Below are positions 332 through 4,978 of a DNA stretch of 64,000 nucleotides, in pieces; within the stretch, counting starts at the first letter, position 1; the number at the start of each line of letters is the position of its first letter. The DNA comes from a virus, in the IMG/VR virus record IMGVR_UViG_3300037245_001320, positions 62,001 to 126,000 of that record; one strand, 5' to 3'. Below the pieces are notes generated by a model that had not been told where the DNA came from, made no database searches, and saw only the letters and a program-made list of their open reading frames with translations. The position numbers were made by a program, and so were the translations under genes.

Positions 332-512
332 ATACATATTCATAAAAACTGTAGAGCCTCTATGTGAGAAATGTTGTTTTGTAGAGGATTCTGTAGCTAA
401 ATGTAATGAGAATATATTAAAAGCTATAAAAGATTGTGGAGTTAATTGTTTGAAGATCCACGGGTATTACTCTGTGGTTGATGATAGTTGTTTGAAGAAG
501 GGGAATGCATGA
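324..512 (+). CDS. Small cysteine-rich protein
   Basis: A 62-residue protein with seven cysteines, including a CEKCC cluster near residue 14, that could bind a metal. It starts inside the end of the previous gene and its stop overlaps the ATG of the next gene as ATGA, which indicates translational coupling. No family recognised. Its position directly before the CmoA-like gene makes an accessory role in the modification operon possible, but this is inference. Confidence 0.55.
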   Translation: MNRYIFIKTVEPLCEKCCFVEDSVAKCNENILKAIKDCGVNCLKIHGYYSVVDDSCLKKGNA

Positions 513-1186
513 ATTATAGTTGGAGATTTAACAAAGAAGTTGTAGGGGAATTCGATGAACATGTAAGACAATCCGTTCCATTATATGAGGTATTTCATGC
601 CTCAATTTTGGATCTAGCCAAATATTACATAACCCCCAATTCTGATATTATCGATGTAGGCACATCCACAGGACATTTTATAAATTCCATATATGAAGAT
701 AAGTTAGATAGAAATAATAAGTATGTAGGAGTAGACATAGAACCTGATATGATTACAGAGTGTAGAGAGAGGTATAAGGATAAAGATATCTCATTTATAC
801 TATCAGATGCTATTGAAGTGGACTACAAGAATGCAAGTGTGATAACTTTAATATTACTTCTACAGTTTATGAAGAAGCCAGAGAGAATAAAGTTGTTACA
901 ACATATACACGACTCAGTTAAGATAGGCACAGCTCTGTTTATAGTGGAGAAAATAAAAACACCTAACTTAGATATACATGATATGTATGTGGATGTTTAT
1001 TATGACTTCAAAAGATCACAAGGGTTATCTGATACAGAAATACTAGATAAGAATACCTCATTAAGAGGTGTGATGTTTCCCGAGACTCTACCTGAGATCT
1101 TACGTATTCTAGACTTCATTGGGTTTGACACAGAGGTTAATGTTAAGTATAACAACTTTGCCAGTATAATAGCGGTAAAGAGATAA
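509..1186 (+). CDS. cmoA: CmoA-family carboxy-SAM synthase homologue
   Basis: Rossmann SAM-binding protein of 225 residues. Motif I is DVGTSTG at 49-55 and the acidic ribose-binding region is GVDIEP. Outside the SAM fold it matches remembered E. coli CmoA: RQSVPLY (CmoA RSVPGY), NASVITLILLLQF then PER..LL, YDFKRSQGLSDTEI (CmoA HDFKRANGYSELEI), and a C-terminal NNFASIIAVK. CmoA makes carboxy-S-adenosylmethionine from SAM and prephenate. The ATG at 509 is preferred to an upstream TTG at 488 because AGAAGGGG lies just before it and ATGA couples it to the previous gene. No cmoB is seen nearby; a C5 DNA methyltransferase follows instead, suggesting carboxy-SAM is used on DNA. A generic methyltransferase is the alternative. 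Confidence 0.8.
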   Translation: MNYSWRFNKEVVGEFDEHVRQSVPLYEVFHASILDLAKYYITPNSDIIDVGTSTGHFINSIYEDKLDRNNKYVGVDIEPDMITECRERYKDKDISFILSDAIEVDYKNASVITLILLLQFMKKPERIKLLQHIHDSVKIGTALFIVEKIKTPNLDIHDMYVDVYYDFKRSQGLSDTEILDKNTSLRGVMFPETLPEILRILDFIGFDTEVNVKYNNFASIIAVKR

Positions 1187-2036: not shown

Positions 2037-3518
2037 TTGCAAAAAGAAAAAATTAAATTATTCAGTACCTTCACAGGAATAGGTAGCCCAGAGATGGCTA
2101 TGAGAAACATAGGATTGGATTTTGAGGTCGTAGGTATATCAGAAGTAGATAAGTGGGCTTTACAAGCTTACGACGCTATCCATTGTGAGAATGAACCAGA
2201 ACCAGAATACCCAACAAAAGAAGAAATGAAAGAATACTTCCTAGAAAAGAATATAGCTTACAACTTCTCCACAGGTAAATCAGAGATGCCTAGAAATGAA
2301 AGAGATCTACAGAGATTATATAAAGCACATAAGAGAAGTCGAAATTTTGGGGATATCAGATTGATAGATGAACACAATCTACCTGAGTTTAACTTCTTCA
2401 CATATAGCTTTCCATGCAAAAATATATCAGTTGCAGGTACACAATCAGGTTTAGATGAAGGATCAGAGACCCAATCATCCTTACTATGGGAGTGTAAAAG
2501 ACTAATAGAAGTAAACAAACCTAAATACCTCTTAATGGAGAATGTTAAGAATCTTGTAGGTAAGAAGTTCAAACCACTATTAGAGTTATGGATAGAGACT
2601 TTAGATGAACTAGGATATAAATCATCTTATAAAGTATTGAATGGTAAAGATTTTGGAGTACCTCAGAATAGAGAAAGAGTTATGATGATTTCTATTTTAG
2701 ATGATGGAGAAGAAGATTATATTTTTCCAGAAGGACAACCACTAGATATATGTCTACATGATGTGTTAGAGCCTAAAGTAGATGAAAAGTACTATATCAA
2801 CCCTGAGAAGTACAAGCATATAACAGCACCTTTACCCTCACAAGAAATAAGCTATTGTATTGATGCTAATTATCATAAAGGTATTTCTGTAGATCAATAT
2901 ATCTTGAAGAGAAGAAGACAATTAGTTCAGGTAGGTAATCTAGAGAATAAGATTCATTCTAATACCAGAGTTTATGCTGAGGAGGGATTAAGTCCAACTT
3001 TAAATAGTATGAATGGAGGCAACAGACAACCTAAGATCCTAGTAGACGGATGTGCTATAAGAGGTAGGACTCCTAAGGGAGAAGGCAAGGATACCCCTGT
3101 AGAGCAGAGATTAGAGATAAACAAACATGAGGGTGTTTCTAACAGTATAACCACTGTAGGGAAGGATAGTCTTGTTTGTGAGACATCTTATGGGGGAAGA
3201 ATCGTAGGTAGAAATCCAGATAATCCCAAAAGCAGAGTAAAAGGACTACCTACTGTACAGATGTTAGAGTTGAATAAAAACCCTGATATCTCTAATACTC
3301 TGTCTACCGTTCAAAAAGATTCTGTGGTAATGAATACTCATAGGAGAGTTAGAAAATTAACACCTCTAGAATGTTGGAGACTAATGGGCTACACAGATGA
3401 AGATTTTGAGAAGAGCAGGGACAAGGGGTTTTTAGCAAACACAAAGTTATACGAGAGAGCAGGAAGAGGAATTGTAGTTCCTATGCTTGAAGCATTACTT
3501 ACAAATCTATTTTATTAA
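2037..3518 (+). CDS. C5-cytosine DNA methyltransferase, probable carboxymethyltransferase
   Basis: A 493-residue Dcm-family enzyme with motif I FTGIGSP (12-18), catalytic PC (Cys127), ENV (168-170), QNRER (210-214), and late motifs RKLTPLECWRLMGY and AGRGIVVP. Between them lies a long target-recognition region with two related copies of a segment ending SNSITTVGKDSLV / SNTLSTVQKDSVV. Motif X normally reads AGNSIVV; here it is AGRGIVV, placing Arg477 (codon 3465-3467) at the conserved Asn. From memory, changing that Asn to Lys or Arg in M.MpeI (N374) lets it use carboxy-SAM. Start is TTG at 2037 behind AAGGAG that overlaps the previous stop. Linked to CmoA-like and PP-loop genes. Confidence 0.85.
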   Translation: MQKEKIKLFSTFTGIGSPEMAMRNIGLDFEVVGISEVDKWALQAYDAIHCENEPEPEYPTKEEMKEYFLEKNIAYNFSTGKSEMPRNERDLQRLYKAHKRSRNFGDIRLIDEHNLPEFNFFTYSFPCKNISVAGTQSGLDEGSETQSSLLWECKRLIEVNKPKYLLMENVKNLVGKKFKPLLELWIETLDELGYKSSYKVLNGKDFGVPQNRERVMMISILDDGEEDYIFPEGQPLDICLHDVLEPKVDEKYYINPEKYKHITAPLPSQEISYCIDANYHKGISVDQYILKRRRQLVQVGNLENKIHSNTRVYAEEGLSPTLNSMNGGNRQPKILVDGCAIRGRTPKGEGKDTPVEQRLEINKHEGVSNSITTVGKDSLVCETSYGGRIVGRNPDNPKSRVKGLPTVQMLELNKNPDISNTLSTVQKDSVVMNTHRRVRKLTPLECWRLMGYTDEDFEKSRDKGFLANTKLYERAGRGIVVPMLEALLTNLFY

Positions 3519-3555: not shown

Positions 3556-3577
3556 TGCATTAATTAAAAAACATCAG

Positions 3578-3601
3578 AAAAAATTCCCACTATGCTATAA
3601 T
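3578..3601 (+). promoter_or_regulatory. Phage-type extended -10 promoter (copy 1)
   Basis: A-tract then TTCCCACTATG, C, TATAAT at 3596-3601. The same element occurs seven times in the window, always oriented towards genes. The TGnTATAAT form is an extended -10; no TTGACA-type -35 is needed. Predicted start of transcription is near 3608, directly before the structured RNA. Confidence 0.8.
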
Positions 3602-3607
3602 AGAGTT

Positions 3608-3793: not shown

Positions 3794-4855
3794 ATGAGTA
3801 AAGAAAAAGAGAAAGATGTTGTTAGTGTTGGGATGAAGAAGTGTAGAACTTGTGGGAAAGAGAAGGAATCTACTTTAGAGAACTTTCACGCAGGAAGAGG
3901 AAGCAAAGGAGGATTTCTACTTGATTGTAAAGAATGCAAGCGAGCCAAGGAAAGAGGAGACAAATATTATTTAGAACACTTTGAAAGAGAGGAAGACACT
4001 ACTCCAGCAGGATATAAGAAATGTAGTGATTGTGGGAAAAATAAAGAACAAACTGCTGAGTTTTTCCACAGAGACAAAGGATTTAAATCAGGCTTTAAGG
4101 CAAGATGTAAAGATTGTGAAAATATTATTAGAAACAAGCCAAAAAGAAAAGCCAACGATAAAAAACAAGCACAGAACCGCAACGCTAGACCAGAAGTAAG
4201 AATTCAGAGAAAGGAACAGAGAAAGGAATATAAAGCTAGACCAGAAGTTACGAAACACACTAAAGAGTATAATAAAGAATATTTATCTAGACCAGAAGTT
4301 AAGAAACATACTAAAGAGTATCATAAAGAATGGTATAAAAAACCAGAAAATAAAGAACGTAAAAAACAACAAGATAGGATAAATTCCCAAAAGCCTGAAA
4401 ATAAAGCTAAAAGAGCTGAAAGACGCAGAGAAAGATACAAAAATGAACCCTTATTTAGAATAAGGGTTAATCTTAGCAGAAATTTTTCCAGTCAGCTAAA
4501 AACACTTGGAACAAAAAAGCCCTCTGGAACTATGACTTATACAGGATGTACAAATGAAGAACTCTTAAAACATTTAAACACAGGCGAGTACACAATGAAG
4601 GACTACATGACAAACACCCCTTTGGAGACCTTCTTCGATTTTGATCACATAATACCTTCTCAGTATTTCTTAGATAGAATTAAAACAGATGAAAACGATA
4701 AAATAACAAAAGAGACACTTCCTTGGTTGCATAATTGGTGGAGCTACAGAAACATGAGGATTTGGCCTCATATACCCAATATTATTAAAGGAAAGAATAT
4801 AGATCAGGAGCTAATAGCTAAACATGGTATAGAAGATCTGTTAACTATAGATTAA
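3794..4855 (+). CDS. HNH homing endonuclease with zinc modules
   Basis: A 353-residue protein. Two N-terminal zinc modules each have two CxxC pairs (C17/C20/C45/C48 and C77/C80/C105/C108). A basic linker (about 185-260) repeats RPEV..HTKEY units. The C-terminal HNH domain has DHIIP at 284-288 and RNMRIWP near 318-324. Such proteins cut DNA and spread their own gene. It is a free-standing insert between the modification operon and portal, with its own promoter and terminator, behind the structured RNA. Its ribosome site is weak (ATAGG), so translation may depend on the RNA fold. Confidence 0.8.
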   Translation: MSKEKEKDVVSVGMKKCRTCGKEKESTLENFHAGRGSKGGFLLDCKECKRAKERGDKYYLEHFEREEDTTPAGYKKCSDCGKNKEQTAEFFHRDKGFKSGFKARCKDCENIIRNKPKRKANDKKQAQNRNARPEVRIQRKEQRKEYKARPEVTKHTKEYNKEYLSRPEVKKHTKEYHKEWYKKPENKERKKQQDRINSQKPENKAKRAERRRERYKNEPLFRIRVNLSRNFSSQLKTLGTKKPSGTMTYTGCTNEELLKHLNTGEYTMKDYMTNTPLETFFDFDHIIPSQYFLDRIKTDENDKITKETLPWLHNWWSYRNMRIWPHIPNIIKGKNIDQELIAKHGIEDLLTID

Positions 4856-4920: not shown

Positions 4921-4945
4921 AAAAAAATTCCCACTATGCTATAAT
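4921..4945 (+). promoter_or_regulatory. Phage-type promoter (copy 2), head operon
   Basis: Seven-A tract, TTCCCACTATG, C, TATAAT (4940-4945). It lies upstream of the portal ribosome site at about 4967 and inside a spurious N-terminal extension of the portal reading frame, which settles the portal start at 4979. Confidence 0.8.
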
Positions 4946-4978
4946 AGAGATAGATTAATAAAAATTAAAGGACATAAG

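Follow-up and report, generated by a model that had tools for sequence, protein, structure and literature searches.

A cmoA-like, cmoY-like, and methyltransferase gene cassette

The window, the whole 64,000-nucleotide stretch of DNA analyzed here, comes from a virus record of 154 kb (G000:C1:62001-126000). Near its start lie three genes in the same direction, in the order cmoA, cmoY-like ligase, and methyltransferase, separated by gaps of 9 and 4 nucleotides. Just downstream of this cassette are genes for portal, head morphogenesis, and major head proteins.

The first gene, P0002 (positions 509 to 1186, plus strand), encodes a CmoA-like protein of 225 amino acids, a putative carboxy-SAM (Cx-SAM) synthase. 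The CmoA model TIGR00740 spans residues 4 to 224 (E value, 3.6e-40), with a score of 138 bits that falls under the NCBI equivalog cutoff of 193. Its best PDB matches are the bacterial CmoA structures 1im8 and 4gek (E values, 1.7e-25 and 6.7e-25, full length). P0002 also matches PHROG 4752, and its nearest homolog by identity among phage records is found in Staphylococcus phage F1 (36.7%). As a lone query against virus contigs P0002 returned no matches, and a scan with a CmoA alignment was used instead.

Arg199 of Escherichia coli CmoA holds the carboxylate by a salt bridge (PMC3663124). The equivalent site in P0002 is Asn182, and Arg186 (1064 to 1066, plus strand) lies one helical turn past it. 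In an alignment of 93 CmoA sequences, made up of 92 phage and virus loci and E. coli CmoA, the charge is located either at position 199 (Arg or Lys) or on an Arg exactly four residues later, and almost never at both or neither. P0002 (Asn182 and Arg186; window positions 1052 to 1066) shares the later-Arg form with the experimentally active SpCmoA. Because an active enzyme has this form, the loss of the canonical Arg199 in P0002 is probably weak evidence against activity.

The second gene, P0003 (1196 to 2032, plus strand), encodes a 278-amino-acid protein of the Asn-synthase/PP-loop type (PF00733; 28.2 bits, cutoff of 21), a putative ATP-dependent amide ligase that lacks a glutaminase domain. 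Translation and alignment place its PP-loop, SGGLD, at 1268 to 1282 on the plus strand. The protein resembles SpCmoY of Synechococcus phage S-B43 (27.5% identity; E value, 5e-21) and also the ligases of PaBG and Staphylococcus phage F1, and the CmoY alignment was too divergent to serve as a scan profile. ParB-domain genes are often found with published CmoX enzymes, and none was found in this phage record.

Other features of the surrounding DNA were recorded. CpG is strongly depleted across the window (positions 1 to 64000), at 0.36 of expectation with a G+C content of 0.35, and GpC is near normal (0.89). An AT-rich repeat, AAAAAATTCCCACTATGCTATAATAGAG, occurs at 3575 to 3605 and at 4926 to 4949, flanking a gene at 3794 to 4855 that has weak matches to Lar-like and endonuclease VII PHROGs. 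A gene for an RtcB-type RNA ligase precedes the window by approximately 4 kb (G000:C1:57213-58385; L286:11213-12385).

Arg replaces Asn in motif X of the methyltransferase

The third gene, P0001 (2037 to 3518, plus strand), is cmoX-like and encodes a predicted carboxymethyltransferase of 493 amino acids with a C5-cytosine methyltransferase fold (PF00145, 3.2e-60; TIGR00675, 2.9e-57). It starts with a TTG codon 4 nucleotides past the cmoY stop, with AAGGAG upstream. The hallmarks of C5-methyltransferases are all present: the catalytic Cys127 of motif IV (F125-P126-C127-K128; 2409 to 2420, plus strand), E168-N169-V170 of motif VI (2538 to 2546, plus strand), which is invariant in the C5-methyltransferase alignments made here, and the QxRxR of motif VIII (Q210-N-R-E-R214; 2664 to 2678, plus strand; translation and alignment). 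In motif IV, Lys128 replaces the Gln of plain enzymes.

Motif X reads AGRGIV (residues 475 to 480; 3459 to 3476, plus strand), with Arg477 (codon AGA, 3465 to 3467) where Asn is usual. The original prediction had pointed to this substitution and matched it to residue 374 of M.MpeI, a site of cofactor engineering; translation and an ungapped alignment confirmed both claims. M.MpeI is the closest solved protein to P0001 (8c56/4dkj; phmmer E value, 6.5e-41), and Arg477 falls exactly on its Asn374 in a block without gaps (P0001, LYERAGRGIVVPMLEAL; M.MpeI, MIYIAGNSIPVKILEAI). By its Arg477, P0001 stands apart from plain M.MpeI-like C5-methyltransferases, which have Asn in motif X. The predicted fold of P0001 (AF2 model) also best matches M.MpeI (4dkj, 7e-23), along with other C5-methyltransferases. 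The core of this model is well predicted and residues 263 to 434 are disordered (pLDDT below 50); the model confirms the fold only.

M.MpeI (4dkj and 8c56 to 8c59) and P0001 have the motif IV sequence TYSFPC in common. Wild-type M.MpeI, however, has Asn at position 374, uses SAM, and has no known link to cmoA, whereas P0001 has a natural Arg at exactly this residue. The positive charge that is natural in P0001 was engineered in M.MpeI N374K, a variant cited in PMC12783734.

Comparison with the published CmoA-CmoX-CmoY system

That 5-carboxymethylcytosine occurs naturally as a base was not shown until December 2025 (Yang et al.; PMC12783734). In that work (Nat Commun), CmoA of S-B43 was found to make Cx-SAM, and SpCmoX was found to move the carboxymethyl group to cytosine C5, with Arg350, at the position of HhaI Asn304, touching the Cx-SAM carboxylate. 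Wild-type SpCmoX accepts Cx-SAM only and rejects SAM, and CmoY of S-B43 amidates 5-carboxymethylcytosine with glycine (PMC12783734).

The S-B43 CmoA-CmoX-CmoY system (PDB 8YF3) matches the window in its three gene types and in their order. It also shares with the window the motif X Arg, a CmoA Arg one turn past the Arg199 site, and an Asn-synthase-like ligase without a glutaminase domain. Its methyltransferase, in contrast, belongs to a different C5-methyltransferase branch, with SPPC in motif IV rather than the SFPCK of P0001. The structure of SpCmoX (8YF3) is only a weak match to P0001 (E value, 2.9e-4), and the variable target-recognition region is longer in P0001. The published census of CmoX kept only sequences with both SPPC and Arg (PMC12783734). 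Because motif IV of P0001 is SFPC, which does not pass the SPPC filter, P0001 lies outside this census as described. A second point of comparison is Staphylococcus phage vB-SscS-F1 (L019), which has the same cmoA-cmoY-methyltransferase order as the window and a methyltransferase that differs from P0001 in having GSPC and a Gly at the motif X site (VVGGV). These comparisons go beyond the original prediction in three ways: such systems have already been published, the middle gene encodes a CmoY-type ligase, and P0001 is on a different branch from SpCmoX.

Among M.MpeI-like enzymes with a readable motif X, Arg is found only with cmoA

We scanned virus contigs and bacterial genomes with a profile from an M.MpeI-like alignment that was cut before motif X and was thus blind to residue 477. 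Among the readable loci from this and an earlier scan, motif X has Asn in about 150 and Asp in 2, and no cmoA was found in the flanking DNA examined around these loci; about 20 others were unreadable at motif X, mostly because the genes were split or cut. In the motif-X-blind scan, Arg appeared elsewhere in the M.MpeI-like family only in two IMG/VR loci, L116 and L117. These are the two best matches to P0001 (66% and 64% identity), with an identical AGRGIVVPMLE, and in both cmoA lies directly upstream of the methyltransferase gene. When 50 of these virus records were searched whole, cmoA was found in L116 and L117 only. A closer methyltransferase scan added only L278, with Asn (QAGNGIIT) and no cmoA in the whole record.

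The original prediction would have been refuted if Arg were as frequent in homologs without a linked cmoA. We found Arg in 0 of about 150 unlinked homologs and in 3 of 3 with cmoA. The Fisher P value for this association, 1.6e-6, overstates independence, because the Arg residues of P0001, L116, and L117 represent a single evolutionary event. Neither chance nor a sequencing error accounts for Arg477: Asn to Arg takes two base changes, the nearest homologs share AGRGIVVPMLE, and about 150 other family members keep Asn.

L116 and L117 differ from the window in several respects. Their CmoA proteins are of the Arg199/Lys199 type, unlike the Asn182/Arg186 form of P0002; motif IV is SYPC rather than SFPC; and the flanks examined contained no cmoY, so that the amide step may not be general. 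The variable target-recognition region of P0001 (3036 to 3344, plus strand), as aligned with these relatives, consists of two related modules ending in SNSITTVGKDSLV and SNTLSTVQKDSVV. Residues 339 to 436, the bulk of this region, are missing from the L117 enzyme. DNA targets within the clade probably differ, because the target region (about residues 334 to 436) is modular and mostly missing in L117. For comparison, the target of M.MpeI is CG and that of SpCmoX is GC.

Three candidate exceptions were rejected. L162 and L164 had appeared to carry Arg without cmoA through misalignment; they encode circularly permuted C5-methyltransferases (L162:5863-6873 and L164:5941-6909) in which motifs IX-X precede motif I, and the true motif X, near the N terminus, is AGNSIVV. 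An apparent Lys at motif X in L272 was a pattern artifact, the true motif being AGNSIVL.

Motif X in cmoA-linked methyltransferases at large

We also took the reverse approach, scanning from the CmoA alignment and then reading motif X in the linked C5-methyltransferase open reading frames (ORFs). Arg occupies the motif X site in 75 of 77 such ORFs, a set that includes SPPC enzymes, GFPC enzymes (L044, L099, and L104), PSRSV-type enzymes (L028 and L029), and the window clade. L028 and L029 had been considered as lacking Arg; this was ruled out, as their motif reads PSRSVSIPI, with PSRSV in place of AGNSV. In jumbo phages of Erwinia and Yersinia, the gene after cmoA is ligase-like and no C5-methyltransferase gene follows; a C5-methyltransferase encoded elsewhere in these genomes also has Arg (LGRICV and LGRVCV).

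The other two of the 77 ORFs, from Staphylococcus phages, have Gly. These are the enzymes of F1 (L019:10491-11498) and an SPbeta-like phage (L020:9702-10700), with VVGGVINQL at motif X and GSPCQSF at motif IV. Arg is therefore not strictly required beside cmoA. Should these two enzymes use Cx-SAM, they must bind its carboxylate through a different residue.

The residue that follows the catalytic Cys also varies with cmoA linkage: it is Q, T, or P in unlinked enzymes and mostly S, A, or K, and also C or T, in cmoA-linked ones, 5 of which have Q. Lys128 of P0001 corresponds to Gln82 of M.HhaI. Gln82 and Asn304 of M.HhaI are the two conserved-motif residues engineered to admit bulky cofactors (PMC10666283). 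The pattern at the post-Cys residue is a correlation with cmoA linkage, in which many SPPC enzymes share descent.

The Arg arose separately in the M.MpeI-like branch

A maximum-likelihood tree of 81 enzymes was built with the motif X columns removed. P0001 and the L116 and L117 enzymes form one clade (100/100) that falls among the Asn-bearing M.MpeI-like enzymes (100/98) and well away from those with SPPC. A topology test rejected a single clade of all Arg enzymes (P = 7.6e-61). An AU test rejected placing the window clade together with the SPPC Arg enzymes, the SpCmoX type (P = 1.1e-6), and placing it with the FPC Arg enzymes was likewise rejected (P = 2.1e-8). At least three substitutions to Arg are needed to explain the tree, every one of them in cmoA-containing genomes; we read these as gains because Asn is taken as ancestral, as in C5-methyltransferases at large. 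Thus, Arg477 arose inside the M.MpeI-like family, separately from SpCmoX, and its presence therefore reflects functional convergence rather than membership in the SpCmoX branch. A common origin of the CmoA proteins of the window, L116, and L117 was weakly rejected (P = 0.04), with the window CmoA on a long branch, and cmoA may have been exchanged within the window methyltransferase clade.

Proposed function of the cassette and alternative explanations

Gene order, the motif X alignment, the intact catalytic motifs, the co-occurrence of Arg with cmoA, and the separate origin of the Arg are shown by the sequence analysis. On the basis of these sequences, the three genes probably modify cytosines of the phage DNA, first with a carboxymethyl group and then with an amide. 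By homology, P0002 would make Cx-SAM from SAM and host prephenate. P0001 would flip out a cytosine, Cys127 would attack C6, and the carboxymethyl group would go to C5. The position of Arg477, its linkage to cmoA, and the SpCmoX structure make it highly likely that P0001 uses Cx-SAM, with Arg477 predicted to pair with the carboxylate through a salt bridge. P0003 would then adenylate the new carboxylate with ATP and join it to an amine, either glycine or another. DNA modified in this way may evade host restriction. Features counted against carboxymethylation include the CmoA score under the equivalog cutoff, Asn at the Arg199 site, and SFPC instead of SPPC.

P0001 could instead be an ordinary SAM-dependent M.MpeI/Dcm-like C5-methyltransferase with a harmless motif X change, next to a CmoA-like protein that acts on tRNA. 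Its nearest relative in sequence and fold is indeed a plain methyltransferase, M.MpeI, and CmoA was first known from the cmo5U modification of tRNA. This explanation is nonetheless very unlikely: about 150 Asn/Asp relatives are without cmoA, yet all three Arg members have it immediately upstream or one gene away; Arg has appeared repeatedly, in three or more separate lineages linked to cmoA; no CmoB gene was observed next to the CmoA-like gene; and SpCmoX carries the same Arg and does not accept SAM (PMC12783734). The suggestion in the original prediction that Arg beside cmoA points to use of carboxy-SAM gains support from both the linkage pattern and the natural precedent of SpCmoX Arg350 (PMC12783734). 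It is also very unlikely that Arg477 was inherited from an ancestor shared with SpCmoX, which would make P0001 a divergent offshoot of the published CmoX family. The residue, the neighboring genes, and the "ER.GR" surroundings are the same in both, but the tree without motif X columns nests P0001 in Asn-bearing M.MpeI-like enzymes (100/98), the AU tests reject joining it with SPPC enzymes, and its motif IV is SFPCK, not SPPC.

The nature of the end product is less certain. Cx-SAM could be used and the product could still be free 5-carboxymethylcytosine (5cxmC) or a nonglycine amide, if the ligase is inactive or takes another amine substrate; we consider this a serious possibility, at somewhat less than even odds. 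P0003 is only 23 to 28% identical to other ligases, L116 and L117 are without cmoY in the flanks examined, and ligase clusters with differing active-site residues have been reported (PMC12783734). On the other hand, its PP-loop is intact, the conserved positions are kept, and it occupies the gene position of the proven SpCmoY.

A broader reading, to which we assign a probability of approximately 0.75, is that DNA carboxymethylation by a motif X Asn-to-Arg change has at least three separate phage origins, in different C5-methyltransferase branches and with cmoA each time, and that a fourth branch, in Staphylococcus phages with Gly, holds the carboxylate by a different residue. The SPPC census would then miss whole lineages, and the M.MpeI-like lineage would represent a natural equivalent of the engineered M.MpeI N374 variants that acts on a DNA target of its own. 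This kind of chemistry is already known; the new finding is that an M.MpeI-like branch made the same switch independently. The cofactor switch would be a repeatable evolutionary step: a change of one residue, at the site that protein engineers had found, that can occur in unrelated methyltransferases wherever a Cx-SAM synthase is available. This points to a new lineage to look for and to a simple rule for finding it: a motif X Arg in a genome that also carries cmoA. Enzymes of this clade may also carboxymethylate different DNA targets and could be of use in labeling chemistry.

Other gene arrangements around viral cmoA

Six records (L096, L098, L101, L102, L074, and L084) contain cmoA with no PF00145 gene in the record, several of them being short fragments. 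Upstream of these cmoA genes are ParB-domain genes, one of which encodes a protein of about 500 amino acids with no other Pfam domain; the ParB-domain proteins are possible alternative Cx-SAM acceptors. In a 328-kb virus record (L056:5968-7538), cmoA overlaps the next gene, whose product is a Methyltransf_25 protein that weakly matches DUF1698 (Methyltransf_9); no C5-methyltransferase was found in that record. The two genes may form a viral CmoA-CmoB pair for tRNA, not a DNA modification system. Finally, two tandem cmoX paralogs lie beside cmoA in L054, L066, L067, L094, L106, and L107, where they perhaps serve two DNA targets.
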